Shown here: positions 10,709 to 35,360 of the stretch, piece by piece
Layout: every line of letters starts with the position of its first letter
Numbering within the stretch: position 1 is the first letter of the stretch
Assembly: GCF_025140835.1 (NCBI RefSeq)
Contig: NZ_CP081153.1
Location: 124,001 to 188,000, forward strand
Direction of reading: 5' to 3'
Length of the DNA stretch: 64,000 nt
Origin: Aliiroseovarius sp. M344
GTDB lineage: Bacteria > Pseudomonadota > Alphaproteobacteria > Rhodobacterales > Rhodobacteraceae
Made by a program: the position numbers and the translations under genes
The notes under the pieces: model-generated
Database searches by the model: none
What the model saw: only the letters and a program-made list of their open reading frames with translations
What the model was told of the DNA's origin: nothing

Positions 10709-11542
10709 ATGACGAAATCGAGCTATTATGCACCGCACGGAGGGTTGCCCCCTCAGACGCAGCTTCTGACCGATCGGGCAATGTTTACCGAGGCTTATGC
10801 GGTGATCCCGAAAGGGACTTATAGCGATATTGTCACAAGTCTTTTGCCGTTCTGGGAGGATGCGCGCTTCTGGGTATTGTCGCGACCGCTGTCAGGATTT
10901 GCCGAGACTTTCTCGCAATATATTGCCGAGGTGCTGCCGGGCGGCGGCAGCGACCGGCCTGAAACAGAAACCGGCGCCGAAGCCGTGTTGTTTGTCGTTG
11001 AAGGCGGCATGACGCTGACCATTGATGGTAAAGCGCATGAATTGTCGGAAGGCGGGTATGCCTTTCTTCCCCCACATGCCGCGTGGACCCTGCGCAACAA
11101 CGGGTCCGCGCCCGTGCGCTTCCATTGGATCCGAAAACGCTATCAAGCCGTCGAGGGGCTGGACGCACCAGAAGCCTTTGTCACCAGTGATCGCGACGTC
11201 ACGCCGACCCCGATGCCCGACACGGACGGGGCTTGGGCAACCAGCCGTTTTGTTGACCCCACTGATCTGCGCCATGACATGCATGTGACCATTGTCACCT
11301 TCCAGCCGGGCGGCGTCATTCCCTTCGCGGAAACCCATGTAATGGAACATGGGCTTTACGTGCTGGAGGGCAAAGCTGTCTATCGTCTGAACCAAGATTG
11401 GGTCGAGGTCGAGGCCGGTGATTACATGTGGCTGCGCGCCTTCTGCCCGCAGGCATGTTATGCAGGTGGGCCGGGGCCGTTCCGATATCTACTTTATAAA
11501 GACGTCAATCGGCATATGACGCTGGGGTCGGTCGGGGTCTAG
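10709..11542 (+). CDS. allE: (S)-ureidoglycine aminohydrolase
   Basis: This 277-residue bicupin matches ureidoglycine aminohydrolase (AllE/UGHY/YlbA), which releases ammonia from ureidoglycine to give (S)-ureidoglycolate. The N-terminal cupin contains LFVVEGGMTLTIDG. The C-terminal catalytic cupin has HVMEHGLYVLEG, with metal-binding His/Glu, then DWVEVEAGDYMWLRAFCPQACYAGG and YLLYKDVNR, all family hallmarks. Its substrate is made from allantoate, and its product is used by AllA encoded at 21097-21597. Its 3' end overlaps the convergent bhcR stop by 4 bp (CTAG), placing purine catabolism directly beside the glyoxylate-assimilation cluster. Confidence 0.9.
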   Translation: MTKSSYYAPHGGLPPQTQLLTDRAMFTEAYAVIPKGTYSDIVTSLLPFWEDARFWVLSRPLSGFAETFSQYIAEVLPGGGSDRPETETGAEAVLFVVEGGMTLTIDGKAHELSEGGYAFLPPHAAWTLRNNGSAPVRFHWIRKRYQAVEGLDAPEAFVTSDRDVTPTPMPDTDGAWATSRFVDPTDLRHDMHVTIVTFQPGGVIPFAETHVMEHGLYVLEGKAVYRLNQDWVEVEAGDYMWLRAFCPQACYAGGPGPFRYLLYKDVNRHMTLGSVGV

Positions 11543-12348
11543 GGCGAGCCAAGCCCGCGCGATACGCGTGCCGCAGCATCCGCAACCAGCGCGCCGATCT
11601 TTTCAATGGTGCTTTCCGGCATCCGATGTGTCGGGCCAGAGATGGATATGCCGGCGACGGCCTCGCCATAGATGTCACGGATCGGTGCCGCGATACAGCG
11701 CATGCCCTCGGCTTTCTCCTCGTCGTCGAAAGACCAACCTCTGTCCCGAATACCAGCTAGCTCGTCGCGCAGTGCATCGGGTCGGGTGATTGTCTTTTGG
11801 GTAAACCCTGTCAGACGAGCTGTGCGGAAATACTGATCCGCGTGGCGGTCCGAATAACAGCTTAGCAACGCCTTCCCGATCCCGGATGCGTGCATGGGCG
11901 ACAAGGTGCCGGGTGGAAAGAAAGCCCGGATGGATTCGTTGGTTTCGACCTGACTGATGAACATGATCTCGCCATTCCGTTCGATCCCAAGGTTCGAAGT
12001 TTCGCCGGTGGCCTCCATCAGTTCGCGCATGATTGGGCGGCTACGTTCAACAATGCTGCTTCTGCGCAAAAAGGCCGAACCCATGCGAAAAGCAGCTGAG
12101 CCGATGTGCCAGGCCTGAGTTTTCGGGTCCATCTCAACAACGCCTCTGGCATGAAGGGTGGCAAGCACCCGGTGCATGGTGGCCGGTGATTGGTCCAGAT
12201 GCGTCGCAAGCTCGGACAACGTCATCCCATTTGCATGGGACAAGGCGTCCAGAACATCTAGCGCCCGATCCAGTGCCAGAATGGTGGTCGGTTTTTCGTT
12301 TTGCTGGAATTTCTTGGGGCGACCCATTCGCCGTTTCATCGGCTCCAT
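11539..12348 (-). CDS. bhcR: IclR-family regulator of the beta-hydroxyaspartate cycle, BhcR
   Basis: This 269-residue IclR protein has an N-terminal winged helix-turn-helix (LDRALDVLDALSHANGMTLSELATHL...SPATMHRVLATL). The C-terminal effector domain has the IclR motifs MHASGIGKALLS, DDEEKAEGMRCIAAPIRD and VAGISISGP. It is divergent from bhcA with a 200-bp spacer, the layout of bhcR in the described bhc clusters of Paracoccus denitrificans. There BhcR binds the bhcA promoter and responds to glyoxylate. The same function is inferred from position and family. The ATG at 12348 has GGAAAG upstream, and an internal ATG (MKRRMGRP) is possible. Palindromic candidate operators lie in the spacer. Confidence 0.88.
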   Translation of the reverse strand: MEPMKRRMGRPKKFQQNEKPTTILALDRALDVLDALSHANGMTLSELATHLDQSPATMHRVLATLHARGVVEMDPKTQAWHIGSAAFRMGSAFLRRSSIVERSRPIMRELMEATGETSNLGIERNGEIMFISQVETNESIRAFFPPGTLSPMHASGIGKALLSCYSDRHADQYFRTARLTGFTQKTITRPDALRDELAGIRDRGWSFDDEEKAEGMRCIAAPIRDIYGEAVAGISISGPTHRMPESTIEKIGALVADAAARVSRGLGSP

Positions 12349-12450
12349 TTTCTTTCCTTTCGACCGAAAAAGTAAGACTTTAATTACACTGTTGAAAATG
12401 ACTTTGACAGAGTGAAAAAAAGCAAGCCATTGTTAATTATCATTATTACC

Positions 12451-12493
12451 TTCAAAAGCCCATTTTTGAAATACTTTTTCAAAAAAATATACA
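12451..12493 (+). promoter_or_regulatory. bhcA promoter with overlapping palindromes (candidate BhcR operator)
   Basis: Two inverted repeats overlap. TTCAAAA (12451-12457) pairs with TTTTGAA (12464-12470). TTTTTGAAA (12463-12471) pairs with TTTCAAAAA (12477-12485). They cover a plausible sigma-70 promoter for bhcABCD: TTGAAA at 12466-12471, a 16-bp spacer and TATACA at 12488-12493. The bhcA Shine-Dalgarno (AGGAGGG) follows about 40 bp downstream. Overlap of operator and promoter would allow direct repression or activation by BhcR. Binding itself is not shown. Confidence 0.5.
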
Positions 12494-12548
12494 ACCGGTA
12501 TGCCACCCCGCTAATGTGATCCAGAACCGCTAATAGGAGGGTACGCCA

Positions 12549-13718
12549 ATGAGCTTCCAGAACCCTGTATTCATACCAGGACCGACAAACATGCCCGAGC
12601 ATCTGCGCAAGGCTGTGGATATGCCGACGCTGGATCACCGCTCGCCGTTGTTTGGGCAAATTTTGCATCCGGCGCTTGCTGGGGTGAAGAAGATACTGAA
12701 AAGCGAAACAGCGAATGTTTTTATCTTCCCCTCGACCGGAACCGGGGGGTGGGAAACTGCTCTGACCAACACGCTTAGTGCTGGTGACAAGGTTTTGGCA
12801 GCCCGCAACGGCATGTTCAGCCACCGTTGGATCGACATGTGCCAACGTCATGGACTGGACGTTCAGATTGTTGAAACCCGCTGGGGTGCTGGTCTGCCTG
12901 CCGCCAAATACGCCGACATCCTGAAGGCCGACACGGGTCACGAGATCAAGGTGGTTCTGGCCACGCATAACGAAACGGCCACCGGCGTTCGGTCGGACAT
13001 TGCCGCCGTGCGCAAGGCGCTTGATGCGGCCAACCACCCGGCGATGTTGTTCGTGGATGGTGTCAGCTCGATCGCGTCGATGGACTTCCGCATGGACGAA
13101 TGGGGCGTGGATATTGCCGTAACTGGATCACAAAAGGGCTTCATGCTACCCGCTGGTTTGGCAATCGTCGGCTTTTCGCCCAAGGCCATGGCCGCACTGG
13201 AAACCGCGACCCTGCCGCGCACCTTCTTTGACGTGCGGGACATGGGCAACGGCTATGCCAACAATGCCTATCCTTATACACCCGCCGTCGGTCTGTTGAA
13301 CGGGTTGAACGAAGCGTGCAAGATGATCCTTGATGAAGGGCTTGAGAACGTCTTTGTCCGTCACCATCGGATCGCGGAAGGCGTGCGTCAGGCGGTCAAC
13401 GCATGGGGCCTTGAGCTTTGCGCAGTTTCCAAAGACGTGCAATCGGACACGGTCAGCGCGATCAGAACGCCTGAAGGTTTCAACGCAACTGATATCGTCA
13501 CACATGCGGCCAACAGATACGGCGTCGCCTTCGGTGTAGGTCTGGGCGAGGTCGCCGGCAAGGTGTTCCGCATCGGCCACCTAGGCAGCCTGACCGATGT
13601 TATGACCCTGTCGGGTCTGGCAACCGCTGAGATGTGCATGGTCGATCTGGGCCTCGATATCAAACTGGGGTCGGGTGTGGCTGCGGCGCAAGAATACTAT
13701 CGCAACAACGCTGTTTAA
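12549..13718 (+). CDS. bhcA: L-aspartate:glyoxylate aminotransferase BhcA
   Basis: BhcA transfers the amino group of aspartate to glyoxylate, giving glycine and oxaloacetate, the first step of the beta-hydroxyaspartate cycle. This 389-residue protein is a class-V fold-type-I PLP enzyme. It opens with FIPGPTNMPEHL, has a substrate/cofactor loop FPSTGTGGWE and FVDGVSSIASMDF (Asp contacting the PLP ring), and the PLP lysine K196 in TGSQKGFM. By family alone it could be called serine-glyoxylate aminotransferase, and the assignment to BhcA rests on the complete bhcRABCD context. TAGGAGGG lies just before the ATG. It is the first gene of the operon. Confidence 0.92.
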   Translation: MSFQNPVFIPGPTNMPEHLRKAVDMPTLDHRSPLFGQILHPALAGVKKILKSETANVFIFPSTGTGGWETALTNTLSAGDKVLAARNGMFSHRWIDMCQRHGLDVQIVETRWGAGLPAAKYADILKADTGHEIKVVLATHNETATGVRSDIAAVRKALDAANHPAMLFVDGVSSIASMDFRMDEWGVDIAVTGSQKGFMLPAGLAIVGFSPKAMAALETATLPRTFFDVRDMGNGYANNAYPYTPAVGLLNGLNEACKMILDEGLENVFVRHHRIAEGVRQAVNAWGLELCAVSKDVQSDTVSAIRTPEGFNATDIVTHAANRYGVAFGVGLGEVAGKVFRIGHLGSLTDVMTLSGLATAEMCMVDLGLDIKLGSGVAAAQEYYRNNAV

Positions 13719-13738
13719 TCGGAAAGGATACCACGACG

Positions 13739-14692
13739 ATGTATATCCCTACGCTTGCTGACATGCTTGTCGCGCATGAGCGCATCAAGCCGCATATCCA
13801 GCGCACTCCGGTTCGCACGTCGGATTATCTGGACGAACTGACCGGCGCCAAATTGTTCTTCAAATGCGAGAACTTCCAGACGCCGGGCGCGTTCAAAGTG
13901 CGCGGTGCCTCGAACGCGGTGTTCGGGCTGGATGACGAACAGGCTAAGAAGGGTGTAGCAACGCATTCCAGCGGCAACCATGCGTCCTGCCTCAGCTATG
14001 CAGCCATGTTGCGCGGAATCCCGTGCAACGTGGTCATGCCGCACACAGCGCCGCAGGCCAAAAAAGATACCGTGCGCCGGTATGGTGGCAAGATCACTGA
14101 ATGCGAGCCCTCCACCACGTCGCGCGAAGAGACCTTTGCCAAGGTGCAGGCCGAAACCGGTGGTGACTTCGTACATCCCTATAACGATCCGCGCGTGATT
14201 GCGGGGCAGGGGACCTGCGCGAAAGAGATGATTGAGCAAGTGGACGGTCTGGATTTTGTGGCCGCGCCAATCGGCGGCGGTGGCATGATCTCCGGCACCT
14301 GCCTGACCCTGTCAAACCTAGCGCCTGAAACCAAGATCATCGCAGCCGAGCCGGAGCAAGCCGACGATGCCTATCGCAGCTTCAAGGCAGGGCACATCAT
14401 CGCTGATGACGCGCCGAAAACCATCGCTGATGGTTTGCTGGTGCCCTTGAAGGATCTAACATGGCATTTCGTGTCGAACCACGTGTCCGACATCTATACT
14501 GCCTCAGACCCTGAGATCATCGAGGCGATGAAACTTACCTGGAAACACTTGCGGGTGGTGATGGAGCCCTCCTCCGCCGTGCCTCTGGCGACAATCCTGA
14601 AAAACCCCGACACGTTCAAAGGCAAACGTGTTGGCATCATCATCACTGGCGGCAATGTCGATCTGGACAAACTGCCGTGGCTGAAAACCTGA
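13739..14692 (+). CDS. bhcB: beta-hydroxyaspartate dehydratase BhcB
   Basis: BhcB removes water from (2R,3S)-beta-hydroxyaspartate to form iminosuccinate. The 317-residue protein belongs to the threonine dehydratase/serine racemase fold-type-II PLP family. Features are K53 in the PLP motif TPGAFKVRGA, SSGNHA for cofactor binding, the phosphate-binding glycine loop PIGGGGMISG and a C-terminal ITGGNVDL. Outside this cluster it would be annotated as a threonine ammonia-lyase-like enzyme. The start at 13739 has GGAAAGGA upstream, and a longer open frame begins inside bhcA. It is 20 bp after bhcA. Confidence 0.92.
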   Translation: MYIPTLADMLVAHERIKPHIQRTPVRTSDYLDELTGAKLFFKCENFQTPGAFKVRGASNAVFGLDDEQAKKGVATHSSGNHASCLSYAAMLRGIPCNVVMPHTAPQAKKDTVRRYGGKITECEPSTTSREETFAKVQAETGGDFVHPYNDPRVIAGQGTCAKEMIEQVDGLDFVAAPIGGGGMISGTCLTLSNLAPETKIIAAEPEQADDAYRSFKAGHIIADDAPKTIADGLLVPLKDLTWHFVSNHVSDIYTASDPEIIEAMKLTWKHLRVVMEPSSAVPLATILKNPDTFKGKRVGIIITGGNVDLDKLPWLKT

Positions 14693-14707
14693 TTGGGAGA
14701 CTGAAAA

Positions 14708-15871
14708 ATGAATGCACCGACTGATTTTTCGAAGTTCGATGTGGGCTTTGACATACCCGCCAAGCCCGGCATGGACGAAGCCGAAATCCAAACGCCCTGC
14801 CTCGTGTTGGATCTGGGTGCGCTGGAGCGTAACGTCAAGAAAATGGGCGACTATGCGAAGGCGCACGGGATGCGTCACCGCGCCCATGGGAAGATGCACA
14901 AGTCCGTGGATGTTTTGAAGTTGCAGCAAGACCTTGGCGCGGCCTGTGGCGTATGCTGCCAGAAAGTGTCCGAGGCCGAGGTGTTCGCCCGTGGTGGTAT
15001 CAAGGACGTTATGGTGTCGAACCAAGTCACGGAACCGGCCAAGATCAAGCGTTTGGCCGAGATGCCAAAACTGGGTGCACGGGTTCTGGTCTGTGTCGAT
15101 GACCCCGAGAATGTCAAAGCGTTGTCCGATGCTGCCGTTGCGGCGGGAACAGAGCTGGAAGCGCTGGTCGAGATAGACTGCGGCGCTGGGCGTTGCGGCG
15201 TGAGCACAACGCAGGACGTCGTGAACATCGCAAAACTGATCGATGCGGCCCCGAACCTAAAATTTGCCGGCATTCAAGCCTATCAGGGCGCGATGCAGCA
15301 CATGGACCTGTACACCGACCGCAAAGAAAAGCTGGACGCGGCCGTTGCGCAGGTTGCCGACGCTGTACAGGGTTTGAAAAGCAACGGTCTGGAGTGTGAC
15401 ATTGTTGGCGGTGGCGGGACGGGCTCGTATTACTTCGAGAGCGCATCGAACGTGTATAACGAGCTGCAATGCGGATCCTACGCGTTCATGGACGCCGATT
15501 ATGGCCGCATCCTCGACAAAGACGGCAAGCGCATTGATGACGGCGAGTGGGAGAACGCGTTGTTCATCCTGACCACGGTGATGAGCCATTCAAAAGCCGA
15601 CAAAGCCATCGTCGATGCAGGTCTGAAAGCCCAATCCGTCGATAGCGGTTTGCCTTTTGTCTATGGCCGCGACGATGTCGAATACCTGAAATGTTCGGAC
15701 GAACATGGCGTGGTGGCCGATCCGAATGGCGCGCTGAAGGTGAACGACAAGCTGCGCCTTGTGCCGGGTCACTGCGACCCGACCTGTAACGTGCATGATT
15801 GGTATGTGGGCGTGCGGAATGGCAAGGTTGAAACCGTTTGGCCGGTGTCAGCACGCGGCAAAGCCTATTAA
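14708..15871 (+). CDS. bhcC: beta-hydroxyaspartate aldolase BhcC
   Basis: BhcC condenses glycine with glyoxylate to (2R,3S)-beta-hydroxyaspartate, the carbon-carbon bond-forming step of the cycle. The 387-residue protein is a fold-type-III PLP enzyme of the D-threonine-aldolase (DSD1-like) family. It has a probable PLP lysine K62 in RAHGKMHKS, the barrel segments VEIDCGAGRCGV and AYQGAMQH, and the GGGGTGSYY phosphate loop. The C-terminal metal site PGHCDPTCN has His355 and Asp357 as likely ligands. GGGAG lies upstream of the ATG, 15 bp after bhcB. A stem-loop follows before bhcD. Confidence 0.93.
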   Translation: MNAPTDFSKFDVGFDIPAKPGMDEAEIQTPCLVLDLGALERNVKKMGDYAKAHGMRHRAHGKMHKSVDVLKLQQDLGAACGVCCQKVSEAEVFARGGIKDVMVSNQVTEPAKIKRLAEMPKLGARVLVCVDDPENVKALSDAAVAAGTELEALVEIDCGAGRCGVSTTQDVVNIAKLIDAAPNLKFAGIQAYQGAMQHMDLYTDRKEKLDAAVAQVADAVQGLKSNGLECDIVGGGGTGSYYFESASNVYNELQCGSYAFMDADYGRILDKDGKRIDDGEWENALFILTTVMSHSKADKAIVDAGLKAQSVDSGLPFVYGRDDVEYLKCSDEHGVVADPNGALKVNDKLRLVPGHCDPTCNVHDWYVGVRNGKVETVWPVSARGKAY

Positions 15872-15886
15872 TTCTCATCCTGAACT

Positions 15887-15917
15887 GGTGGGGCTGTCAT
15901 ACGGCCCCACCTTTCTT
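15887..15917 (+). terminator. stem-loop with short U-rich tail between bhcC and bhcD
   Basis: GGTGGGGC (15887-15894) and GCCCCACC (15904-15911) form a perfect 8-bp stem with a 9-base loop, followed by TTTCTT. It resembles a leaky terminator or mRNA-stabilising hairpin inside the bhc operon. It could make bhcD less abundant than bhcABC or protect the bhcABC 3' end. Confidence 0.6.
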
Positions 15918-15934
15918 GAATAGGATCTACCAAC

Positions 15935-16900
15935 ATGTTTATCGTCCCCGAAAAAGAAATCGCCGCCCTTGTGACCCGCAAAGATAACTTCGACGCGGTG
16001 GAACAGGTGTTCGCCTCTATGTCAGGCGGGTCAGCCTATAATTTCCCGGTGATCCGCGAGGCGATCGGTCATGCTGATGCGCTTTACGGGTTCAAATCTG
16101 GGTTTGACCGGGCCGCCCTGAACCTTGGCCTGAAATCCGGCGGGTATTGGCCCGGCAATGCTGACAAGGGTCTGACCAATCACCAGTCGACGGTCTTCCT
16201 GTTTGACGCAGACACAGGCAAATGCCGCGCCGTGGTTGGGGGCAATCTTTTGACGGCCTTGCGGACCGCCGCGGCGGCTGCCGTATCTGTCGCGCATTTG
16301 GCGCGCAAGGACAGCAAGGTTTTGGGCATGATCGGGGCAGGGCATCAAGCCACATTCCAACTGCAAGCCGTGGCCGAGCAGCGAAAATTTGAGAAGGTCG
16401 TCGCGTGGAATCGTACGCCGGAAAAACTTGCCTCGCTCGAGAAAGTGGCGGGCGAACTGGGCCTGCCGTTTGAAAGCGTCAGCCTTGATGACCTGGGTGC
16501 GCAGGCGGACGTGATCGTGACGATCGTATCAAGCCAAGCGGCGATCCTGAAGGATGCGCAGGTCAAGCCCGGCACGCACATCGCCTGCATGGGCACTGAC
16601 ACCAAAGGCAAGCAAGAGGTCGAAGCCGCGCTTGTGGCCCGCGCCACCGTGTTCACAGACGAAATCGCCCAGTCGATCAGCATCGGCGAGGCGCAGCACG
16701 CCATTTCTGCCGGGACGTTGAAGCAGGCGGATATCGCAGAAATTGGTGCAGTCATCAATGGCGACCATCCCGGGCGCACGTCCGATGATCAGGTGACGTT
16801 GTTCGATGGCACAGGTGTTGGGCTTCAGGATCTGGCCGTCGCCTCTAAGGTTGTGGATCTTGCTGTCGAAAAGGGCATCGCGATCGAGGTCGACTTCTAA
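15935..16900 (+). CDS. bhcD: iminosuccinate reductase BhcD
   Basis: BhcD reduces iminosuccinate to L-aspartate, regenerating the amino donor of BhcA and closing the cycle. The 321-residue protein is in the ornithine cyclodeaminase/mu-crystallin family. It has an N-terminal dimerisation and substrate part (GGSAYNFPVIREAI, LKSGGYWPGN, TALRTAAAAAVSV) and then the Rossmann NAD-binding motif MIGAGHQATFQLQA. The late segments HIACMGTDTKGKQEVE and DGTGVGLQDLAVA follow. The start has AGGAT upstream. Its C-terminal codons and following bases form an 8-bp inverted repeat (16885-16910) around the stop, without a T-tract. Confidence 0.92.
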   Translation: MFIVPEKEIAALVTRKDNFDAVEQVFASMSGGSAYNFPVIREAIGHADALYGFKSGFDRAALNLGLKSGGYWPGNADKGLTNHQSTVFLFDADTGKCRAVVGGNLLTALRTAAAAAVSVAHLARKDSKVLGMIGAGHQATFQLQAVAEQRKFEKVVAWNRTPEKLASLEKVAGELGLPFESVSLDDLGAQADVIVTIVSSQAAILKDAQVKPGTHIACMGTDTKGKQEVEAALVARATVFTDEIAQSISIGEAQHAISAGTLKQADIAEIGAVINGDHPGRTSDDQVTLFDGTGVGLQDLAVASKVVDLAVEKGIAIEVDF

Positions 16901-21048: not shown

Positions 21049-21096
21049 GTGGTTTCCTCCCATTTAGACTGTTCGCGCTAGGCCCCTGTTTCTTTG

Positions 21097-26573: not shown

Positions 26574-27509
26574 TTAGGATTGGGCCTGTTTTGGGAAAAT
26601 TGGCGCCACGCCCAACAGGGGCTTGCTGTTTTCAATGACGAAATTGACGAACAGGCGGACCTTGGGGTCTTGCAGCTTCTTGTGCGGATAAAGGCAGCCA
26701 AAAATTGTTGGGGCGGGCGGGGTTTCGGGAAGCACCTCGACAAGCGTGCCATCGCGAAGGTGCCCCGCCACTTCAAAACGCGGTTTGTTAACGATGCCGC
26801 GCCCGTCCAACGCCCAAGCCGTCAGGACATCACCGTCATCGGCGTCATATTTGCCAGCGACCTCCAGTTTCCGCGCCCCTTTGGCGGTTTGCAGCACCCA
26901 GAAATATTCGGGCGAGCGCGGATATCTGAGAAGCAGGCAATTCGCGGTGTCTTTCATCAGGTCGTCAGGTGTCTGAGGTGTGCCGTTCTGCGCCAGGTAC
27001 TCGGGCGAGGCGCACAACACCCGCTCGCAGTCACTGATCTTGCGCAGTTTCAGGTTCGAATCGCTGGGTGTTCCGATAAAAAAGGACACGTCTAATCCGT
27101 CGGCCAGAATATCCACTTTGCGGTCAGACAGCCGCATTTGCAGTCGCGTGTCAGGATATTTCTCGACGAACTTTGGCACCAAGGGCGCGATAACTCGGCG
27201 TCCGGCCCCCAGCGGCGCGGTCACGCGGATCGTCCCGCGCGGCGCGTGAGAGAAGTTGGCGACCTTCGACTCCGCGATATCAACCGTCTCAAGCACTGCC
27301 TTCGCCTCGTCATAGAACAGCTTGCCAACTTCGGTTGGTGACAATGAGCGTGTGGTCCGGTTGAACAGGCGCACACCCAGGTGTTTCTCCAGCTCTTTGA
27401 TGCGCTTACTGGCAACCGCCGGGGTCAGGCGCAGGTCGCGACCACCTGATGTGATGCTGCCAAGATCAACCACGCGAACAAATACGCGAAGGCTTTCGAT
27501 ATAGGACAT
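26574..27509 (-). CDS. LysR-family transcriptional regulator (paralogue 2)
   Basis: This 311-residue LysR protein has helix-turn-helix LRVFVRVVDLGSITSGGRDLRLTPAVASKRIKELEKHLGVRLFNRTTR and effector domain GTIRVTAPLGAGRRVIAP. It lines up residue by residue with the regulator at 23519-24424 (shared APxVPKF, SDRKxDxxAxGLD, DSNLxxRKIxDCxRVLCASPxY, DPKxRLFxxF), so the two arose by duplication. The start at 27509 begins at MSYIESLRVF, and a longer frame adds 14 residues without family support. It is divergent from xdhA and probably controls xdhABC. Confidence 0.9.
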   Translation of the reverse strand: MSYIESLRVFVRVVDLGSITSGGRDLRLTPAVASKRIKELEKHLGVRLFNRTTRSLSPTEVGKLFYDEAKAVLETVDIAESKVANFSHAPRGTIRVTAPLGAGRRVIAPLVPKFVEKYPDTRLQMRLSDRKVDILADGLDVSFFIGTPSDSNLKLRKISDCERVLCASPEYLAQNGTPQTPDDLMKDTANCLLLRYPRSPEYFWVLQTAKGARKLEVAGKYDADDGDVLTAWALDGRGIVNKPRFEVAGHLRDGTLVEVLPETPPAPTIFGCLYPHKKLQDPKVRLFVNFVIENSKPLLGVAPIFPKQAQS

Positions 27510-27564
27510 GCGCTTCCCACTTGGCTTTGGCGTTAGGGCAGAGCATGACATGGCACAAGTTAAT

Positions 27565-27676: not shown

Positions 27677-29140
27677 ATGACATATCGCAACAACATCCAT
27701 TTTCTTCTCAATGGGAAGCCTGTCACCGTTGCGGATGCCGGTGCGGACCAGACGTTGTTGGACTTTCTGCGCCTGACCAAGCGCCTGACAGGCACCAAGG
27801 AAGGGTGCGCCGAAGGGGATTGCGGGGCCTGCACCGTGTTGGTGGGGCGGTTGACCGATACCGGTTTGACCTATGAGCCTGTGAATGCCTGCATCCGCTT
27901 TCTAGTCTCGTTGGACGGCTGTCATGTCGTCACGGTCGAGCATCTATCCGGCCCCGAAGGCCGCCTGCACCCGGTGCAACAGGCCATGGTCGACCACCAC
28001 GGAAGCCAATGCGGTTTCTGCACGCCGGGCTTCGTGATGTCGCTTTACGCGCTGTGGATGGCGACGCCAGAGCCGACCGAGGTGCAGGTCGAAACCGCGC
28101 TGCAAGGCAACCTGTGCCGCTGCACGGGGTATGAGCCGATCATTCGCGCCGCCGTTGCGGTCAGCCGCTATGGCACGCCGACGGCAGACCACCTGAATAC
28201 CGAACGCGATCAGGTGATCAGCCAGCTTCGCGCTCTGCGGGATGGCCAGCGCGTTGTTACCGGACCGGCCGACAACCAAGCCATTCTGCCCGCAGATGTC
28301 GACGATCTGGCCGAGGTTCTGCTGGCCCACCCAAAAGCGACAATCGTCGCAGGGGCGACCGATGTCGGCCTGTGGGTCACGAAGTTTCTGCGCCCGATCA
28401 GCCCTGCCATCTTTATCGGCCATCTGGACGGTTTGAAATCCGTGCGTCAGGACACCGACGGTTTGGTGATCGGCGCCGCCGCCACCTATACCGACTGTCA
28501 GAATGCTATCGCCGAGATATTCCCGCATCTGACCCCCTATTGGGACCGGATCGCCGGTTGGCAGGTGCGCAATATGGGCACGGTCGGCGGCAATATTGCA
28601 AACGGCTCGCCCATTGGCGACACGCCGCCCGTGCTGATTGCGTTGGGGGCCGAAGTCACGCTGCGCCATGGTGCCACGCGTCGCACCATGCCCTTGCAAG
28701 ACTTCTTCATTGATTACGGCAAACAAGACCGTAAGCCCGGCGAGTTTGTCGAAAGCATCCGCGTTCCTCGCCCTGCGCCGGGGCAGCGCGACGCGGCCTA
28801 TAAAATCTCAAAACGCCGCGACGAGGATATTTCCTCAGTTGCCGTTGGGATCAGCGTCACCTTGACCGAGGGTGTGATCAGCAGCTGTTGCATTGCCTTT
28901 GGCGGCATGGCGGCCACCCCCAAGCGCGCCGCCGCTGCCGAGGCCGCGCTGCTGGGTCAAAGCTGGTCCGAGCAGGTTTTTGACAAAGCCGCGCAGGCCC
29001 TGCCGCAAGACTTTGCGCCGCTGTCCGATTGGCGCGCGTCGGCAGATTACCGAATGCTGTCGGCCCAAAACCTCTTGCGCCGGTTTTTTCTGGACGATGA
29101 CGACGCGACCACAACCCCTGTTCGACTGACAACCGCATAA
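27677..29140 (+). CDS. xdhA: xanthine dehydrogenase small subunit XdhA (2Fe-2S and FAD domains)
   Basis: XdhA carries electrons from the molybdenum site of XdhB through two 2Fe-2S clusters to FAD and NAD. In this 487-residue protein the plant-ferredoxin domain has C44, C49, C52 and C72. The helical 2Fe-2S domain has C112-GF-C115 and C147-R-C149. The FAD domain starts near residue 190 (VVAGATDVGLWVTK; NMGTVGGNIANGSPIGD). AGGAGCG precedes the ATG. It is the first gene of xdhABC-permease(-guaD), all closely spaced. Confidence 0.96.
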   Translation: MTYRNNIHFLLNGKPVTVADAGADQTLLDFLRLTKRLTGTKEGCAEGDCGACTVLVGRLTDTGLTYEPVNACIRFLVSLDGCHVVTVEHLSGPEGRLHPVQQAMVDHHGSQCGFCTPGFVMSLYALWMATPEPTEVQVETALQGNLCRCTGYEPIIRAAVAVSRYGTPTADHLNTERDQVISQLRALRDGQRVVTGPADNQAILPADVDDLAEVLLAHPKATIVAGATDVGLWVTKFLRPISPAIFIGHLDGLKSVRQDTDGLVIGAAATYTDCQNAIAEIFPHLTPYWDRIAGWQVRNMGTVGGNIANGSPIGDTPPVLIALGAEVTLRHGATRRTMPLQDFFIDYGKQDRKPGEFVESIRVPRPAPGQRDAAYKISKRRDEDISSVAVGISVTLTEGVISSCCIAFGGMAATPKRAAAAEAALLGQSWSEQVFDKAAQALPQDFAPLSDWRASADYRMLSAQNLLRRFFLDDDDATTTPVRLTTA

Positions 29141-29152
29141 GGAAGCTTTGAT

Positions 29153-31471
29153 ATGAAAGATAGTGCCTCCATTCGCGGCGCGGCCCACACCGACCGCATT
29201 CATGACAGTGCCACCAAACATGTCACCGGGTCAGCGGATTACACCGATGACATCGCCGAGCCCGTGGGGACGCTTCATGCCTATCTGGGCGTGTCGGATG
29301 TGGCCCATGCCAAATTAGGGCGCGTTGATCTGTCCGCTGTTCTGGCTGCCCCCGGTGTGGTCGGTGTGCTGACCGCAGACGATATTCCCGGCCATAACGA
29401 CGTCAGCCCCACTGGCCTGAACGACGAGCCGGTGTTTCCGACCGACACGATCCAGTTTTACGGCCAACCGCTGTTTGCGGTCATTGCCGAAACACGTGAT
29501 GATGCACGCCGTGCCGCCGAGCTTGCGCAGGTCGATTACGAGGTCCTGCCGCACGCGTTAGACCCTATTGCCGCGCAGGAAGCGGGTTATCCACATGTTA
29601 CCGCGCCATTGAAGCTGGAGCGTGGCGAGGTTGACCCAGCCATTGCGACAGCGACCAACCGTATTCAAGCCCGGATGACTGTCGGCGGACAAGATCACAT
29701 GTATCTGGAAGGCCATATTGCCTTTGCCATTCCCGGCGAGGATGATGACGTGATCGTCCACTGTTCCACCCAACATCCAAGTGAGGCGCAGCATATGGTC
29801 GCCCATGTGTTGGGTGTGCCGTCCAATGCGGTCACGGTGAATGTGCGCCGCATGGGGGGTGGGTTTGGTGGCAAAGAAAGCCAGATGAACCTGTTCTGTG
29901 CCGTCGCCGCCATCGCCGCCAAGAAATGGAACCGTGCGGTGAAAATCCGCCCCGACCGCGATCAGGACATGACCGCGACCGGCAAGCGCCATGACTTCGT
30001 GATCGACTATGACGTGGCCTTTGATGATGCAGGCCGGATCGAAGCTGTGGACGGCGTCTTTGCGGCGCGCTGCGGGTTTTCTTCGGACCTGTCTGGGCCT
30101 GTGACGGACCGTGCGCTGTTCCACGCCGACAATGCCTATTTCTATCCGAATGTGCGGCTGGTCAGCCATCCGATGAAGACCAACACAGTCTCGAACACAG
30201 CGTTTCGAGGCTTCGGCGGGCCACAAGGCGTGATCGTGGCCGAACGCATCATGGAAGAGATCGCCTATGCCACCGGCCAAGACCCGCTGGATGTACGCAA
30301 GGCGAATTTCTATGGCGGCGCGGGTCGTGATCTGACGCCCTATCACCAAGAGGTCGAGGACAACATTCTGGATCGGCTGGTGAGCGAGCTAGAGGAAACC
30401 GCAGGCTATCGCGCGCGTCGCAAAGCCATCATCGACTTCAACGCAACCTCGCGCGTTCTGAAAAAGGGCATCGCACTGACGCCGGTCAAGTTCGGCATCT
30501 CGTTCACCGCAACCTGGTACAATCAGGCGGGCGCGCTGGTCCATGTCTATAACGACGGTTCTATCCATCTGAACCATGGCGGCACCGAGATGGGTCAGGG
30601 TCTGAACACCAAAGTGGCGCAAGTCGTCGCCGAGGCGTTTCAGGTGGATTTCGAGCGGATCAAGATCACCAAGACCACGACCGAAAAGGTGCCGAACACG
30701 TCCGCGACTGCCGCGTCCTCAGGCACCGACCTGAATGGTATGGCGGCCCTGAATGCGGTCGAGCAGATTAAGGCGCGGTTGGTCGAATTTGCCGCCGGAA
30801 AGTGGGAGGTGTCACCTGACGCTGTTTCGTTTGAGCCAAATCAGGTGCGTATCGGTGACGTTGTGCTCTCCTTCGACGCTTTCGTTAAAGAAGCCTATAT
30901 GGCGCGGGTGCAACTCTCGGCTGCGGGCTTCTATAAGACGCCGAAAATCCATTGGGATCGCGCCGCCGGAAAGGGTCGCCCATTCTTTTACTATGCCTAT
31001 GGCGCGGCCTGTTCCGAGGTGACGATCGACACATTGACTGGCGAATACCGGGTCGAGCGGACGGATATCCTGCATGATGTGGGCCGCTCGCTGAATCCAG
31101 TTCTGGACAAGGGTCAAGTCGAAGGCGCGTTCATTCAGGGCATGGGCTGGCTGACCACCGAAGAATTGTGGTGGGACGACGCGGGTTGCTTGCGTACCCA
31201 CGCGCCGTCGACTTACAAGATTCCGCTGGCCTCGGACCGCCCGCGTGTGTTCAACGTCAAGCTTGCCGACTGGTCCGAAAACCGCGAGCTGACCATCAAA
31301 CGGTCAAAAGCCGTGGGTGAGCCGCCCTTCATGCTGGGCATCTCGGTGTTCGAAGCGCTGTCGATGGCGGTTGCCTCGGTCGGGGATTATCGCACCTGCC
31401 CGCGTCTTGACGCGCCCGCCACACCCGAGCGCGTTCTCATGGCCGTCGAACACCTGAAAGCGGCTGGTTAA
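29153..31471 (+). CDS. xdhB: xanthine dehydrogenase large (molybdopterin) subunit XdhB
   Basis: XdhB is the molybdenum-cofactor subunit that hydroxylates hypoxanthine and xanthine to urate. The 772-residue length is normal. Recognisable are the N-terminal TGSADYTDDI, GGQDHMYLEGHIAFA, the Moco glycine loop RRMGGGFGGKESQ, TAFRGFGGPQGV, HLNHGGTEMGQGLNTK and the catalytic glutamate E723 in AVGEPPFMLG. The Glu and Arg residues expected for purine rather than aldehyde substrates seem present in the RGFGG and EGH regions, consistent with xanthine. It starts 12 bp after xdhA, with AAGGAAG upstream. Confidence 0.96.
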   Translation: MKDSASIRGAAHTDRIHDSATKHVTGSADYTDDIAEPVGTLHAYLGVSDVAHAKLGRVDLSAVLAAPGVVGVLTADDIPGHNDVSPTGLNDEPVFPTDTIQFYGQPLFAVIAETRDDARRAAELAQVDYEVLPHALDPIAAQEAGYPHVTAPLKLERGEVDPAIATATNRIQARMTVGGQDHMYLEGHIAFAIPGEDDDVIVHCSTQHPSEAQHMVAHVLGVPSNAVTVNVRRMGGGFGGKESQMNLFCAVAAIAAKKWNRAVKIRPDRDQDMTATGKRHDFVIDYDVAFDDAGRIEAVDGVFAARCGFSSDLSGPVTDRALFHADNAYFYPNVRLVSHPMKTNTVSNTAFRGFGGPQGVIVAERIMEEIAYATGQDPLDVRKANFYGGAGRDLTPYHQEVEDNILDRLVSELEETAGYRARRKAIIDFNATSRVLKKGIALTPVKFGISFTATWYNQAGALVHVYNDGSIHLNHGGTEMGQGLNTKVAQVVAEAFQVDFERIKITKTTTEKVPNTSATAASSGTDLNGMAALNAVEQIKARLVEFAAGKWEVSPDAVSFEPNQVRIGDVVLSFDAFVKEAYMARVQLSAAGFYKTPKIHWDRAAGKGRPFFYYAYGAACSEVTIDTLTGEYRVERTDILHDVGRSLNPVLDKGQVEGAFIQGMGWLTTEELWWDDAGCLRTHAPSTYKIPLASDRPRVFNVKLADWSENRELTIKRSKAVGEPPFMLGISVFEALSMAVASVGDYRTCPRLDAPATPERVLMAVEHLKAAG

Positions 31472-31474
31472 GCG

Positions 31475-32371
31475 ATGAGCCTGGCCGCGCATCAATTTGA
31501 CGGTTTCCTGTCTCAGAACAGGCGGGTGATCCGTGTCACCCTGACCCGTGTGCGTGGATCATCACCGCGCAACGAAGGCACCGAAATGTTTGTCACGCGT
31601 GATTGTCTGTGGGGCACCATTGGTGGCGGTCAGCTGGAATACATCGCCATCGACCGCGCGCGTGAAATGCTGCGCGACGGCGTTCTGAACCTTGATCTGG
31701 ACGTGCCCCTTGGACCAGAGATCGGCCAATGCTGCGGCGGTCGGGTCGAGCTGTCATTGGCGCGGATGCGCAGGGCCGACAAGCGCGACGCTGTCGCGCG
31801 GGCGCAGGACCAGGCCGACCAATTGCCCCATATCTATGTCATGGGCGCGGGTCATGTGGGCCGTGCTTTGGCCGATCTGTTCCAGCACATGCCGGTGCGC
31901 TGCATCCTGATCGACACCCGCGAAGACGAGCTGAGCCAATGCCGTGCCGACGTGGAAACGCGGCTGAGCGCGATCCCGGAGGTGGATATCATCAACGCTC
32001 CGGCGGGCAGCGCCTTTGTCGTGCTGACCCATGATCACGCGCTGGATTTCCTGCTGACCCTCGCTGCTCTTGAAAAGGGTGACGCGACATATGTCGGCAT
32101 GATTGGGTCTGCCACCAAGCGGGCCAAATTTCGCAATTGGGTCCGCCTGCATGGCGACGACCACAGCACCGAACAATTGATTTGCCCCATTGGGGCAAGC
32201 GGCAGCCGTGACAAACGGCCCAGCGTCATCGCGGCCTTGGTGGCAGCGGAAGTGATTGCTGATTTGACCTCTGAAACTGCCGCACACACCCAGCAATGGG
32301 ACAAGGGAGCGCCCATCCTGGGCAATCAATCAGACCGAAAGAGCAACCGCGCCAGACTGGCCCGGGACTAA
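31475..32371 (+). CDS. xdhC: xanthine dehydrogenase accessory protein XdhC
   Basis: XdhC binds the molybdenum cofactor, assists its sulfuration and inserts it into XdhB. The 298-residue protein has the XdhC N-terminal motif TRVRGSSPRNEGTEMFV, GTIGGGQLEY and the Cys pair IGQCCGGRVEL that holds the cofactor. The C-terminal Rossmann domain has MGAGHVGRALADL, and the late motif is YVGMIGSATKRAKF. It starts 3 bp after xdhB, indicating coupled translation. Encoding its own chaperone makes the xdh operon self-contained. Confidence 0.95.
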   Translation: MSLAAHQFDGFLSQNRRVIRVTLTRVRGSSPRNEGTEMFVTRDCLWGTIGGGQLEYIAIDRAREMLRDGVLNLDLDVPLGPEIGQCCGGRVELSLARMRRADKRDAVARAQDQADQLPHIYVMGAGHVGRALADLFQHMPVRCILIDTREDELSQCRADVETRLSAIPEVDIINAPAGSAFVVLTHDHALDFLLTLAALEKGDATYVGMIGSATKRAKFRNWVRLHGDDHSTEQLICPIGASGSRDKRPSVIAALVAAEVIADLTSETAAHTQQWDKGAPILGNQSDRKSNRARLARD

Positions 32372-32401
32372 CTTCTGGTCACATTGGAGGAGGAGACCGT
32401 C

Positions 32402-33985
32402 ATGGACGGTGGAACTTACAACTACAAGCTTTTTGCGCGCAGTGACTTCAGCGCGTTCTGGGCACTGTTTACTGATAACCTGATCAATTTGATCGTGCTG
32501 GCAGGTGTCTGTCAGTTCGTCTTCAACATGCCGGCCGCGATTGTCTTTGGTCGCATCCTGCCGGGCGCGGCCGTTGCCATCATGGCCGGTGTTGCCGTCT
32601 ATACATGGCTGGCCAAGCGCGCCGCGCAAAAGCACGGGCGCGACGTGACCGCCCTGCCATACGGCATCTCGACACCCGTGATGTTTGTCTATCTGTTCGG
32701 CGTGATTGGCCCGATTTACTGGTCCACCAATGATGCGATGCTTGCATGGCAAGTGGGTATTGGTGCGGGCTTTATGGGCGGGATCGTTGCGGGCCTTGGG
32801 GCGATCGTCGGCCCGTGGCTGAAACGCGTCACGCCGCGCGCAGGTATGCTGGGCACCCTGTGCGGCATCGCGCTGGTGTTCATCGGCACCGTGCCACTGG
32901 CCACAGTGTTCGAGGACCCGTTCATCGGATTTGCCTCGATGATCATCATCCTGTGGGGTCTGGTCGGACGTTTCCGCCTTCCCTTCAACATTCCTGCCGG
33001 TCTTCTGGCCCTGATCGTCGGCACCGTGGTCGCGCTGGGCATGGGCAAGGCGACGATCAGCTTCGAAGGCGTCGGGTTCTATCCGCCTTTGCCCTATATC
33101 GGAGACCTGATTGCAGGAATTCAACACCTGATCGCCAACCCAGAGCTGTTCCTGGTTTTGGTTCCGGTACAGATCTATAACTTCATCGAAACCATGAACA
33201 ATGTCGAAAGCGCCGAAGCAGCGGGCGACCATTATCCGGTGGCCACCTGTCAGGTGACGGACGGTGTCGGCACGATGATCGGCGCGGTCTTTGGTTCGCC
33301 TTTCCCCACCACCGCCTATATCGGCCATCCGGCATATAAACGAATGGGCGCGCATACTGGTTATATCATTGCCGTTGGGTTGGTTATTCCCTTCGCCGCA
33401 TTCTTCGGATTGCTGGCTTTCCTGAACAACCTGATCCCCGTGGCCGCCGCCGCGCCGGTTCTGGTGTTCGTGGCGCTGAGCCTGATTACCAACACGGCAC
33501 ATTCGGTGAAGACCGAGCATATGGCCGCTGTGACCATCGCGATGATGCCGCATGTGTCATCCTTCCTTGTGACCAAATGGGGTTCGCTGATGGGGGCACT
33601 TGGTGCAACGGGGGTTGAAGGACTTCCGCGACTGGGGGACGAAGCCCTGACCGCTGCGTTGCTGCAACAAGGGGCGCATTTCGAAGGCCACCTTGCGCTT
33701 AGCCAAGGTGCCATCCTGACCGGCCTGATCTGGGGTGCCATTGTGGCCAGCGTGATCGACGGACGGTTCCGCAACGCGGGTGGGTTTGCCCTTGCGGCTT
33801 GTGGCATGTCGTTGGTCGGCATCGTTCATTCGGCCAGCCTGCATTGGCCCAGCCTCAGCGGGGTCAGCATGGGTTATCTAATCGCGGCGGCCTTCCTGTT
33901 CATCTATCCGCACTTCCACAAAGAAGGCGAATTGGTGAACGAGAATCTGCCGACGGAAGAACCACAAATCACACCGGGCGAATAA
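32402..33985 (+). CDS. NCS2/xanthine-uracil-type permease, second purine transporter
   Basis: This 527-residue protein with about 12-14 membrane helices is related to xanthine/uracil permeases but differs clearly from the one at 19618. Characteristic segments are RSDFSAFWALFTDNLINLIVLAG, DVTALPYGISTPVMFVYLFGVIGPIY, YNFIETMNNVESAEAAGD (the Glu-rich substrate region) and GSPFPTTAYIGHPAYKRMGA. It sits between xdhC and guaD in the same orientation, so it most likely imports guanine, hypoxanthine or xanthine. GGAGGAGGAG lies before the ATG at 32402, and an in-frame TTG at 32384 is part of that ribosome-site run. Confidence 0.82.
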   Translation: MDGGTYNYKLFARSDFSAFWALFTDNLINLIVLAGVCQFVFNMPAAIVFGRILPGAAVAIMAGVAVYTWLAKRAAQKHGRDVTALPYGISTPVMFVYLFGVIGPIYWSTNDAMLAWQVGIGAGFMGGIVAGLGAIVGPWLKRVTPRAGMLGTLCGIALVFIGTVPLATVFEDPFIGFASMIIILWGLVGRFRLPFNIPAGLLALIVGTVVALGMGKATISFEGVGFYPPLPYIGDLIAGIQHLIANPELFLVLVPVQIYNFIETMNNVESAEAAGDHYPVATCQVTDGVGTMIGAVFGSPFPTTAYIGHPAYKRMGAHTGYIIAVGLVIPFAAFFGLLAFLNNLIPVAAAAPVLVFVALSLITNTAHSVKTEHMAAVTIAMMPHVSSFLVTKWGSLMGALGATGVEGLPRLGDEALTAALLQQGAHFEGHLALSQGAILTGLIWGAIVASVIDGRFRNAGGFALAACGMSLVGIVHSASLHWPSLSGVSMGYLIAAAFLFIYPHFHKEGELVNENLPTEEPQITPGE

Positions 33986-34007
33986 TTCCTCCCTTTGCCC
34001 GAACTCA

Positions 34008-34042
34008 GCACAGGGCGCGCCCGCCGCGTCCTGTGCCTTTTC
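34008..34042 (+). terminator. strong stem-loop between the purine permease and guaD
   Basis: A 12-bp stem (34008-34019 with 34025-34036, one G-T wobble, 5-base loop) is followed by CTTTTC. It may terminate or attenuate the xdhABC-permease message before guaD, which starts 17 bp further on, or act as a processing site. Confidence 0.6.
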
Positions 34043-34058
34043 TTGAACGGAATATGCA

Positions 34059-35360
34059 ATGACATCGCCGCAAACCCTTCTGCGTGGCCGCACGCTCAAC
34101 TTCACCGCCGAACCGAACGGCCCTGACGACACCCAGGCCTATGAGTATTGCGAGGATGGCGCGATCCTGATTCAGGACGGGTTGATTGTCGCTTCGGGCG
34201 ACTATGTCTCGGTCAGCGCGCAGGCGACCGATGCTGTGGTCATCGACCACCGTCCCCATCTGTTGATGGCCGGTTTCATCGACACGCATATCCATTTTCC
34301 GCAGGTGCAGGTCATCGCGTCCTGGGGCGCTCAGCTGCTGGACTGGCTGAACACCTATACTTTCCCCGCCGAGACCCAATATGCCGACCCGGCGCACAGC
34401 GCCACGATGGCAGGTAAGTTTTTTGACCAGATCACGGCGCATGGCACCACAACGGCGGTCGCATATTGCTCCGTTCACAAAACCTCGGCCGATGCATTTT
34501 TTACCGAGGCCGCGCGTCGCAACATGCGGATGATCGGTGGCAAGGTAATGATGGACCGCAACGCCCCCGACGGTCTGCGCGACACGCCGCAATCCAGCTA
34601 TGACGATACCAAGGCCTTAATAGAGACTTGGCACGGCAAGGGTCGCGCTACTTACGCGATCACACCACGCTTCGCGATCACGTCAACACCCGCGCAAATG
34701 GAGATGGCTCAAGCCTTGGTGCAACAGCATTCCGATTGCTATGTGCAAACGCATCTGTCTGAAAATCACGACGAGATCGCCTATACCGCCGAGCTCTACC
34801 CCAATGCCCGCGACTATTTGGATGTCTATCAATCCTACGGTCTGCTTGGCCCGAAGATGCTGCTGGGTCATTCCATCCACCTGAAACCCCGCGAAATCGA
34901 CGCGCTGGTCGAGACCGGGGCGCATCCCGTTTTTTGCCCAACCTCAAACCTGTTTCTGGGTAGCGGACTGTTTGATGATGCGGGTCTTCGCGGGCGTGGT
35001 GTCACCAACGCAATCGCGACCGATGTTGGGGCGGGCACCAGCTATTCGATGCTGCAAACGCTGAACGAAGGTTACAAGGTGCTGCAATTGCAGGGCCAAT
35101 CCTTACACCCGCTGCGTGCCTTCCACTGGATCACGCGGGGCAATGCGCTGGCGCTTGGATTAGAGAACAAAATCGGCACGCTAGCCCCCGGAAGCGAAGC
35201 CGACATCGTGGTCCTGAACGCTGCCGCCACCCACGCTATGGCCCTGCGCTTGGAGCGCGCCACAACTCTGTCAGAAGAACTTTTTATTCTGATGATGATG
35301 GGCGACGACCGGGCAGTAGATTGTGTCTATTTAGGCGGAAAAGCGTCCGAAAATACGTAA
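34059..35360 (+). CDS. guaD: guanine deaminase
   Basis: Guanine deaminase converts guanine to xanthine, feeding XdhABC. The 433-residue amidohydrolase has the metal-binding HxH in MAGFIDTHIHFPQ, a third His/Glu pair in VQTHLSENHDE, the fourth His in MLLGHSIHL and the catalytic Asp in IATDVGAGTSYSML. SWGAQLLDWLNTYTFPAE is typical of the guanine-specific branch. A modest GGAA ribosome site precedes the ATG. It is the last gene of the purine block, downstream of a hairpin. About 100 bp after it lie without a gene before the tRNA. Confidence 0.95.
   Translation: MTSPQTLLRGRTLNFTAEPNGPDDTQAYEYCEDGAILIQDGLIVASGDYVSVSAQATDAVVIDHRPHLLMAGFIDTHIHFPQVQVIASWGAQLLDWLNTYTFPAETQYADPAHSATMAGKFFDQITAHGTTTAVAYCSVHKTSADAFFTEAARRNMRMIGGKVMMDRNAPDGLRDTPQSSYDDTKALIETWHGKGRATYAITPRFAITSTPAQMEMAQALVQQHSDCYVQTHLSENHDEIAYTAELYPNARDYLDVYQSYGLLGPKMLLGHSIHLKPREIDALVETGAHPVFCPTSNLFLGSGLFDDAGLRGRGVTNAIATDVGAGTSYSMLQTLNEGYKVLQLQGQSLHPLRAFHWITRGNALALGLENKIGTLAPGSEADIVVLNAAATHAMALRLERATTLSEELFILMMMGDDRAVDCVYLGGKASENT

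Follow-up and report, generated by a model that had tools for sequence, protein, structure and literature searches.

The beta-hydroxyaspartate cycle genes of Aliiroseovarius sp. M344 lie within a set of purine degradation genes, and the cycle is proposed here to complete purine catabolism by assimilating the glyoxylate, the whole island then forming a purine-to-oxaloacetate route (probability roughly 0.7). The island spans 24.7 kb (positions 10709-35360) of the window analyzed, a 64-kb stretch that starts at position 124001 and ends at 188000 of a contig of 3.21 Mb, one of the two that make up the 3.39-Mb genome, and comprises allE, bhcR-bhcABCD-maeB, two permeases, allA, puuE-uraD, hiuH, puuD, xdhABC, and guaD (Table 1). 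Identities were assigned from lists of open reading frames (ORFs) and from NCBIfam and Pfam profile scans with curated cut-offs, which bore out the gene inventory of an earlier sequence-only reading; all four cycle enzymes, BhcA, BhcB, BhcC, and BhcD, score above their cut-offs. The strongest new facts are a 25-to-1 contrast with glycolate oxidase in the neighborhoods of bhc and a gene string in the Paracoccus denitrificans lineage that joins bhc to purine genes. A carbon-conserving use of purine-derived glyoxylate would, if true, alter the view of the cycle and the choice of test substrates. Purines are common dissolved nitrogen compounds, and the title of a 2019 Nature paper reportedly presents the cycle as a glycolate assimilation route of marine bacteria.

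The union of cycle and purine genes is not peculiar to this strain, so that the strain-only objection raised in the sequence-only reading itself falls. Rhodobacteraceae was surveyed with a single genome per genus, 149 genera in all; BhcC was found over its cut-off in 60 genera, PuuE in 139, and both in 57; the two lay within 25 kb of each other in 25 of these 57, with every distance between 3.2 and 14.8 kb, against an expectation of 0.75 when 50 kb of a 3.8-Mb genome is taken as near. Co-location thus exceeds chance, and the corresponding binomial figure of 6e-32 overstates the certainty because the genera are related. In 17 more genera the BhcC-like protein stays under the cut-off; PuuE occurs in 16 of these, and in 4 the pair is no more than 25 kb apart. 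Glycolate oxidase, the textbook partner of the cycle, served as control in these genomes: GlcF, its representative, occurs in 137 of the 149 genera and has BhcC at 25 kb or less in 1 of 57; in the 55 genera with all three proteins, bhc and puuE are linked in 25, bhc and glcF in 1, and glcF and puuE in 1. In the genome of the window itself, glcF and bhcC are 2.28 Mb apart. (GlcF was used since the GlcD model TIGR00387 at E<=1e-150 matched in 0 of 149 genera, a threshold too strict to be informative.) The neighborhoods in these 149 genera therefore point more strongly to purines than to glycolate, by 25 genera to 1 within 25 kb.

The second line of evidence comes from Paracoccus, where 12 records matched the bhc stretch and eight were read. 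In five of the eight (P. pantotrophus DSM 11072, P. ferrooxidans, P. denitrificans HAMBI_2443, P. versutus DSM 17099, and Paracoccus sp. SMMA_5_TC) bhcR and bhcABCD are followed on the same strand by an NCS2 permease, 8-oxoguanine deaminase, uraH, and puuD, the last annotated in the P. ferrooxidans record as a cysteine desulfurase. The P. denitrificans deaminase scores 698 bits (cut-off 532), and its UraH and permease also pass their models. In the five records the gap between bhcD and the permease gene measures 36-44 bp and contains a ribosome-binding sequence and, by eye, no hairpin with a T run, while the gap of about 200 bp between uraH and puuD, read in two records, holds a terminator-like hairpin. 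Because the genes are co-directional and the 36-44 bp after bhcD are free of a visible terminator, one transcript covering bhcABCD, permease, deaminase, and uraH is predicted for the P. denitrificans lineage. Next along the string come xdhABC and guaD in P. pantotrophus DSM 11072 (guaD cut), P. ferrooxidans, and P. versutus; neither was found in the stretches read of P. denitrificans and SMMA_5_TC, and allE, allA, and puuE were found in none of the Paracoccus stretches read. Outside Paracoccus, a co-directional purine gene follows bhcD at five loci, namely hiuH at L007, guaD at L057 and L070, and the NCS2 permease gene at L098 and L113. Functional coupling of bhc with purine genes is likely because purine genes extend bhcABCD co-directionally in one Paracoccus lineage and at these five other loci.

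The route that the island would encode can be outlined as follows. GuaD, XdhABC, PuuD, HIUase, UraD, PuuE, AllE, and AllA would convert guanine or xanthine to glyoxylate, urea, and ammonia. BhcA would then make glycine, BhcC join glycine and glyoxylate, BhcB dehydrate the product to iminosuccinate, and BhcD reduce iminosuccinate to aspartate, such that two glyoxylates would yield one oxaloacetate, which MaeB could draw on to pyruvate. Gene identities and positions, linkage statistics, gene orders, and candidate boxes are observed here, whereas flux, induction, and benefit are what we infer. Each guanine-to-glyoxylate step has a dedicated gene in the island except the hydrolysis of allantoate, and a family search of the genome found no dedicated allantoate amidohydrolase. 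The sole hydantoinase/carbamoylase-family match of the genome reaches 684 bits with a broad 'allantoate amidohydrolase' subfamily model (cut-off 452) and 208 bits with the model of AllC proper (cut-off 598), and by eye its gene sits among genes resembling those for pyrimidine reduction and hydrolysis. Allantoicase (PF03561) had no match in the genome or in control genomes, so that little is shown by this result. The gap is probably filled by AllE, since this protein passes NF040771, 'bifunctional allantoicase/(S)-ureidoglycine aminohydrolase', at 510 bits (537 with the plain AllE model) and no separate enzyme was found.

The bhc module resembles a cassette that has repeatedly been placed beside, inside, or upstream of purine genes in the family and that, in one Paracoccus lineage, would read straight through into them. 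A bolder extension, offered only tentatively, is that the cycle has been selected in Rhodobacteraceae above all for the recovery of purine carbon and only secondarily for glycolate, with BhcR forming a feed-forward loop in the P. denitrificans lineage and allE plus a lone BhcC gene acting as a minimal glyoxylate sink linked to purines. In such a loop, glyoxylate from purines or glycolate would switch on its own assimilation together with purine import and breakdown.

Gene neighborhoods that lead from purines through glyoxylate to central metabolism are a known sort of unit; the assimilating pathway is what differs here. Glyoxylate carboligase, the sink for purine-derived glyoxylate in E. coli and Pseudomonas, turned up in none of the 149 genera at E<=1e-200, which speaks for the proposed route. 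For P. denitrificans, the portions of the source available report deletion strains of bhcABCD and bhcR, glyoxylate-dependent growth and induction of bhc, a BhcR that responds to glyoxylate, and, upstream of bhcA, a palindrome that is a potential BhcR site, and they name purines and allantoin as further glyoxylate sources (PMC11323563). The window has the same four enzymes and BhcR, the same divergent bhcR/bhcA promoter, and a palindrome upstream of bhcA; the P. denitrificans cycle is described for glycolate, and adjoining purine genes receive no mention in those portions (PMC11323563). In Escherichia coli the order is allA-allR-gcl-hyi-glxR-allW-allB-ybbY-glxK-allE-allC-allD, and AllR is a glyoxylate-responsive regulator of the IclR family (PMC11323563). 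Like the window, this allantoin/glyoxylate regulon combines ureide genes, an IclR-family regulator, and glyoxylate assimilation in one locus, but in E. coli Gcl, GlxR, and GlxK of the glycerate pathway handle glyoxylate and CO2 is lost, where the window has the beta-hydroxyaspartate cycle; BhcR boxes were seen in the island at bhc only, and the search for glyoxylate carboligase at E<=1e-200 gave no match in the genome of the window. A parallel of demonstrated function, which favors the proposed route, is found in Pseudomonas aeruginosa, with a glyoxylate-using cluster close to purine genes, the allantoin-induced gcl cluster PA1498-PA1502 near PA1513-PA1518, which is needed for allantoin as sole carbon source, mutants failing to grow under that condition; it differs from the window in using the glycerate pathway and in the binding of UgmR upstream of both clusters (PMC12694930). 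Searches of open-licence PMC papers brought up no description of bhc beside purine genes.

Several observations weigh against a purine-to-oxaloacetate route or limit its reach. The pair is unlinked in 32 of the 57 genera (6 on the same contig at a distance, 26 on separate contigs, in part perhaps through breaks in the assembly), and of the 72 genera that lack a BhcC match 66 have PuuE, so the purine pathway can be had without the cycle. A class-wide survey found BhcC over the cut-off in 8 of 289 genomes, five from outside the family; in flanks of 8-9 kb the five extra-family bhc loci had no ureide gene at the identity limits used, and one of them has a 45% match to an NCS2 permease. Within flanks of 10-12 kb, bhc stands away from purine genes in R. 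pomeroyi DSS-3, Aminobacter aminovorans, and Parasedimentitalea marina. Three Paracoccus records likewise lack the purine string and have bhc away from purine genes in such flanks: in P. marcusii CP157 and Paracoccus sp. Arc7-R13 an opposite-strand gene follows bhcD, and in P. pantotrophus ACCC10489 a small plasmid carries bhcBCD, with genes for aldehyde and alcohol dehydrogenases next to them in an arrangement similar to that of A. aminovorans. The five string-bearing records are closely related and may equal one event. Insertion next to purine genes is, moreover, no proof of function by itself, because the slot most often used (see below) also takes unrelated genes.

Sequence motifs give no sign of common control of the two halves in the window either. 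Alignment of 117 bhcR-bhcA gaps revealed a conserved palindrome, TGAAA-N5-TTTCA, exact or near-exact in 65 of them. With at most one mismatch allowed in the 250 bp upstream, a box was found at bhcA in 95 of 124 loci against 0.8 in shuffles; the same search gave 1 of 107 for allE, 3 of 114 for puuE, 3 of 105 for hiuH, 3 of 80 for puuD, 0 of 62 for the NCS2 permease gene, and 0 of 60 for lysR, while the samples for xdhA (0 of 6), guaD (0 of 9), and the second permease gene (0 of 6) are too small to judge. The enrichment at bhcA arises by construction because the pattern was derived from bhcA promoters, and the information lies in how scarce the box is elsewhere. In Paracoccus a near form of the box, with a shorter spacer, can be seen by eye and is missed by the pattern. 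In the island, candidate boxes occur in the divergent bhcR/bhcA promoter and nowhere else; two further matches at 3096 and 4136 lie outside it, and the total of 4 in the 64-kb window (2.05 expected) is not above chance. A BhcR regulon shared by both halves is therefore not supported in the window, a missing box being weak evidence.

The sequence-only reading had envisaged one programme and had taken the 4-bp overlap of allE and bhcR as a sign of it. The overlap exists, between the 3' ends of allE (plus strand, ending at 11542) and bhcR (minus strand, ending at 11539), but the genes are convergent, and an overlap tail to tail gives no indication of joint transcription; the operon reading of this junction was rejected. 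A single operon spanning both halves was also ruled out, the island being made up of nine directional runs of alternating strand with two LysR genes and an SDR gene interspersed. What survives of the combined unit is thus the physical union, which is real, and a functional coupling that is likely given the co-directional extensions seen in relatives; neither a single transcript nor a single regulon is supported for the window. Coupling would most likely operate through glyoxylate sensed by BhcR at the bhcA promoter and not through a shared operator, and the metabolite alone would be enough.

Among other explanations, the one that fares best, although somewhat unlikely, holds that purines serve chiefly as a nitrogen source and that the cycle clears reactive glyoxylate rather than feeding growth. 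A purine provides one glyoxylate and, as urea or ammonia, four nitrogens, that is, four nitrogens per two usable carbons, a stoichiometry that suits nitrogen economy. A sink would also be wanted since a search for glyoxylate carboligase (TIGR01504, E<=1e-200, scoring limited to 8 candidates per genome) gave no match in any of the 149 genera, the genome of the window included; the E. coli control was positive, and more distant carboligases may have escaped. Such a sink would be suited, further, by lone genes: in four survey genera (L143, L149, L154, L160) a BhcC-type gene directly follows allE without bhcA, bhcB, bhcD, or bhcR, with the two ORFs of L154 in the same direction and overlapping by 4 bp. 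The lone protein of L143 reaches 707 bits, above the BhcC cut-off, and those of L149, L154, and L160 fall below; for L154 and L160 the best solved match is the D-3-hydroxyaspartate aldolase 6qkb, with HGKMHKS and GHCDPT kept. Lone BhcC-type genes also occur away from purine genes, at 9 of 17 sub-cut-off places and at L134. Against mere disposal, the presence of maeB after bhcD in the window suggests that oxaloacetate is put to use, and the equivalent P. aeruginosa mutants grew with glucose plus allantoin, which there favored lack of carbon over toxicity as the cause of their failure (PMC12694930). Sequence cannot separate carbon assimilation from glyoxylate disposal, and assimilation as the last stage of purine catabolism is the reading preferred here.

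How bhc and purine genes are joined was examined in two samples: the 62 over-cut-off BhcC places of the survey (two genomes with two each), and 80 named loci, those with the most similar BhcC out of 592, many of them truncated at contig ends. At least two genomes (L033/L121, L049/L082) are in both, and the samples were not summed as independent. A purine gene was present in the fetched stretch at 30 of the 62 places (at L106 only as a weak xdhA match) and at most 4 kb from the bhc block at 29. The commonest junction, allE><bhcR-bhcABCD><NCS2, was found at 12 of the 62; allE upstream with a convergent allA downstream was seen at 1, allE upstream with a co-directional NCS2 gene downstream at 2, allE upstream alone at 3, guaD upstream at 1, and a lone BhcC gene between allE and NCS2 at 1, while purine genes only downstream were allA at 5 and NCS2 at 4. 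The 80 named loci include allE in 35, allA in 31, and puuE-uraD in 29. When four Paracoccus records are added, purine genes are absent from the nearest 4 kb at 37 of the 84, and the others show extra junctions, namely hiuH upstream (2) and, downstream on the same strand, guaD (2), hiuH (1), and puuD (3). One genome (G055) carries two bhc loci, L129 and L138, each beside allE, one in a full purine island and the other with allE and maeB only.

This recurrence could also mean that bhc, like other genes, landed in a functionally neutral insertion hotspot, a tolerant site between allE and NCS2, and that the cycle serves glycolate only. In 56 of 220 loci allE is convergent with a downstream NCS2, allA, or puuE gene, and the slot so defined holds bhcABCD in 36 (the window among them, with genomes present in both samples), a lone bhcC-like gene in 3, and none of these in 17, of which 10 are empty with 23-256 bp between match ends. 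A GAPDH-like gene occupies the slot at 17 loci, with or without bhc (e.g., L161, L174, L184, L191, L194; one protein scanned scored 338 bits with TIGR01534, cut-off 367), and further occupants recognized by eye include TauE- and UreI/AmiS-like genes, the UreI-like one matching no NCBIfam model, and second permeases, all as a hotspot would have it. Pairwise distances were compared for 33 of the 36 slot loci, 29 of which had all seven genes; in these 29, bhcC and bhcB correlate poorly with the flanking purine genes (0.19-0.32, and 0.19-0.27 for bhcC), against 0.55-0.62 among the purine genes themselves, which again suits a hotspot, whereas bhcA-allE (0.47) and bhcD-puuE (0.49) lie above the values of bhcC. 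These distances fit, not strongly, a bhc module with a partly separate history. A hotspot without function is nonetheless improbable, given that linkage occurs at other junctions too (after hiuH; before guaD, puuD, and hiuH; after guaD) and in co-directional strings, and that glycolate oxidase, although present in 137 of 149 genera, has no such linkage.

On a quick maximum-likelihood tree of BhcC (79 rows) linkage must have changed at least 19 times, a rough count because 31 of the 76 inner branches are weak, and the starred branches alone force 8 with contig-end-cut rows scored as unlinked. These changes, the several junctions, and the slot left empty in relatives make it the least probable explanation that one old union was simply inherited by a clade and that the 25 genera represent one event, even with allE><bhcR-bhcABCD><NCS2 as the commonest arrangement (12 of 62) and a slight clustering of the linkage label on the tree (a value this low in 12 of 500 shuffles).

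Table 1. Features of the purine and beta-hydroxyaspartate island, in window coordinates.
Feature	Position	Strand	Basis
allE, (S)-ureidoglycine aminohydrolase; UGLYAH2 model passed too	10709..11542	+	NF008376 537 bits; NF040771 510 bits (cut-off 350)
bhcR, IclR-type regulator	11539..12348	-	NF045644 409 bits (cut-off 350)
Candidate BhcR box, TGAAA-N5-TTTCA with one mismatch	12393..12407	.	Conservation-based
Candidate BhcR box, exact palindrome TGAAATACTTTTTCA	12467..12481	.	Box with <=1 mismatch upstream of bhcA in 95/124 loci
bhcA, aspartate-glyoxylate aminotransferase	12549..13718	+	NF045640 754 bits (cut-off 650)
bhcB, beta-hydroxyaspartate dehydratase	13739..14692	+	NF045641 581 bits (cut-off 550); start from sequence
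bhcC, 3-hydroxy-D-aspartate aldolase	14708..15871	+	NF045642 747 bits (cut-off 690)
Hairpin with short T-rich tail, bhcC-bhcD gap	15887..15911	+	Terminator scan (overall at background); structured gap in many relatives
bhcD, iminosuccinate reductase	15935..16900	+	NF045643 581 bits (cut-off 500)
maeB, malic enzyme with PTA-like C-terminal domain	~17048..19324 (start uncertain, ORF from 16997)	+	Pfam malic and PTA_PTB
NCS2 nucleobase permease (xanthine/urate type)	19618..21063	-	TIGR03173 412 bits (cut-off 414); TIGR00801 over cut-off; PF00860
allA, ureidoglycolate lyase	21097..21597	-	NF002952 271 bits (cut-off 260)
puuE-uraD fusion, allantoinase and OHCU decarboxylase	21594..23009	-	TIGR03212 517 bits and TIGR03164 217 bits, both over cut-off
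hiuH, hydroxyisourate hydrolase	23155..23508	+	PF00576 (Transthyretin) 123 bits; start from sequence
LysR-type regulator	23519..24424	-	Same place in many relatives
puuD, membrane urate oxidase	24527..25786	+	PF06181 (Urate_ox_N) 442 bits
SDR oxidoreductase, no assigned role	25877..26548	+	Family scan
Second LysR-type regulator, divergent from xdhA	26574..27551	-	Family scan
xdhA, xanthine dehydrogenase small subunit	27677..29140	+	TIGR02963 664 bits (cut-off 467)
xdhB, xanthine dehydrogenase molybdopterin subunit	29153..31471	+	TIGR02965 1322 bits (cut-off 850)
xdhC, xanthine dehydrogenase accessory protein	31475..32371	+	TIGR02964 283 bits (cut-off 162)
Second purine permease, AGZA-like	32402..33985	+	Names of homologues only; no Pfam/NCBIfam match
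guaD, guanine deaminase	34059..35360	+	TIGR02967 550 bits (cut-off 375)
tRNA-Arg, after guaD	35468..35544

Of the two purine permeases proposed by the sequence-only reading, the NCS2 protein is upheld by Pfam and NCBIfam, and the second is identified through the names of its homologues. For the latter a Pfam scan relaxed to E 10 yields nothing credible, the one hit being a holin model at E 0.18, and a sequence search gave no solved relative; of 8000 proteins scored, 2428 are homologues at E<=1e-20, and the named ones among the close homologues listed are mostly xanthine/uracil/vitamin C or AGZA-family permeases. The best named matches among those listed, from which records of the window's genome itself may be missing, come from Aliiroseovarius, at 97% for BhcC and 96% for this permease. 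MaeB scores 965 bits with NF009501, under the subfamily cut-off of 1178.

Sigma-70 promoter and terminator scans of the window were at background. Across relatives, 67 of 118 bhcC-bhcD gaps of at least 30 bp fold with z below -2 (mononucleotide shuffles) and 30 have a T run after the stem, while for bhcA-bhcB the corresponding figures are 4 and 3 among 110 gaps, and for bhcB-bhcC 8 and 0 among 30; the bhcC-bhcD gap sequences inspected differ widely. The hairpin may act as a partial terminator that lowers bhcD. Outside the island, a SorX small RNA (Rfam RF02784, 70 bits) lies at 52680-52751. On plasmids of two orders, pAA03 of A. aminovorans (L222) and that of P. pantotrophus ACCC10489 (L247), bhc has the same neighbors, encoding N-formylglutamate amidohydrolase, a glutamine synthetase-like protein, aldehyde dehydrogenase, and iron alcohol dehydrogenase. 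This shared set is a sign of transfer, and possibly represents another glyoxylate-yielding pathway coupled to the cycle.

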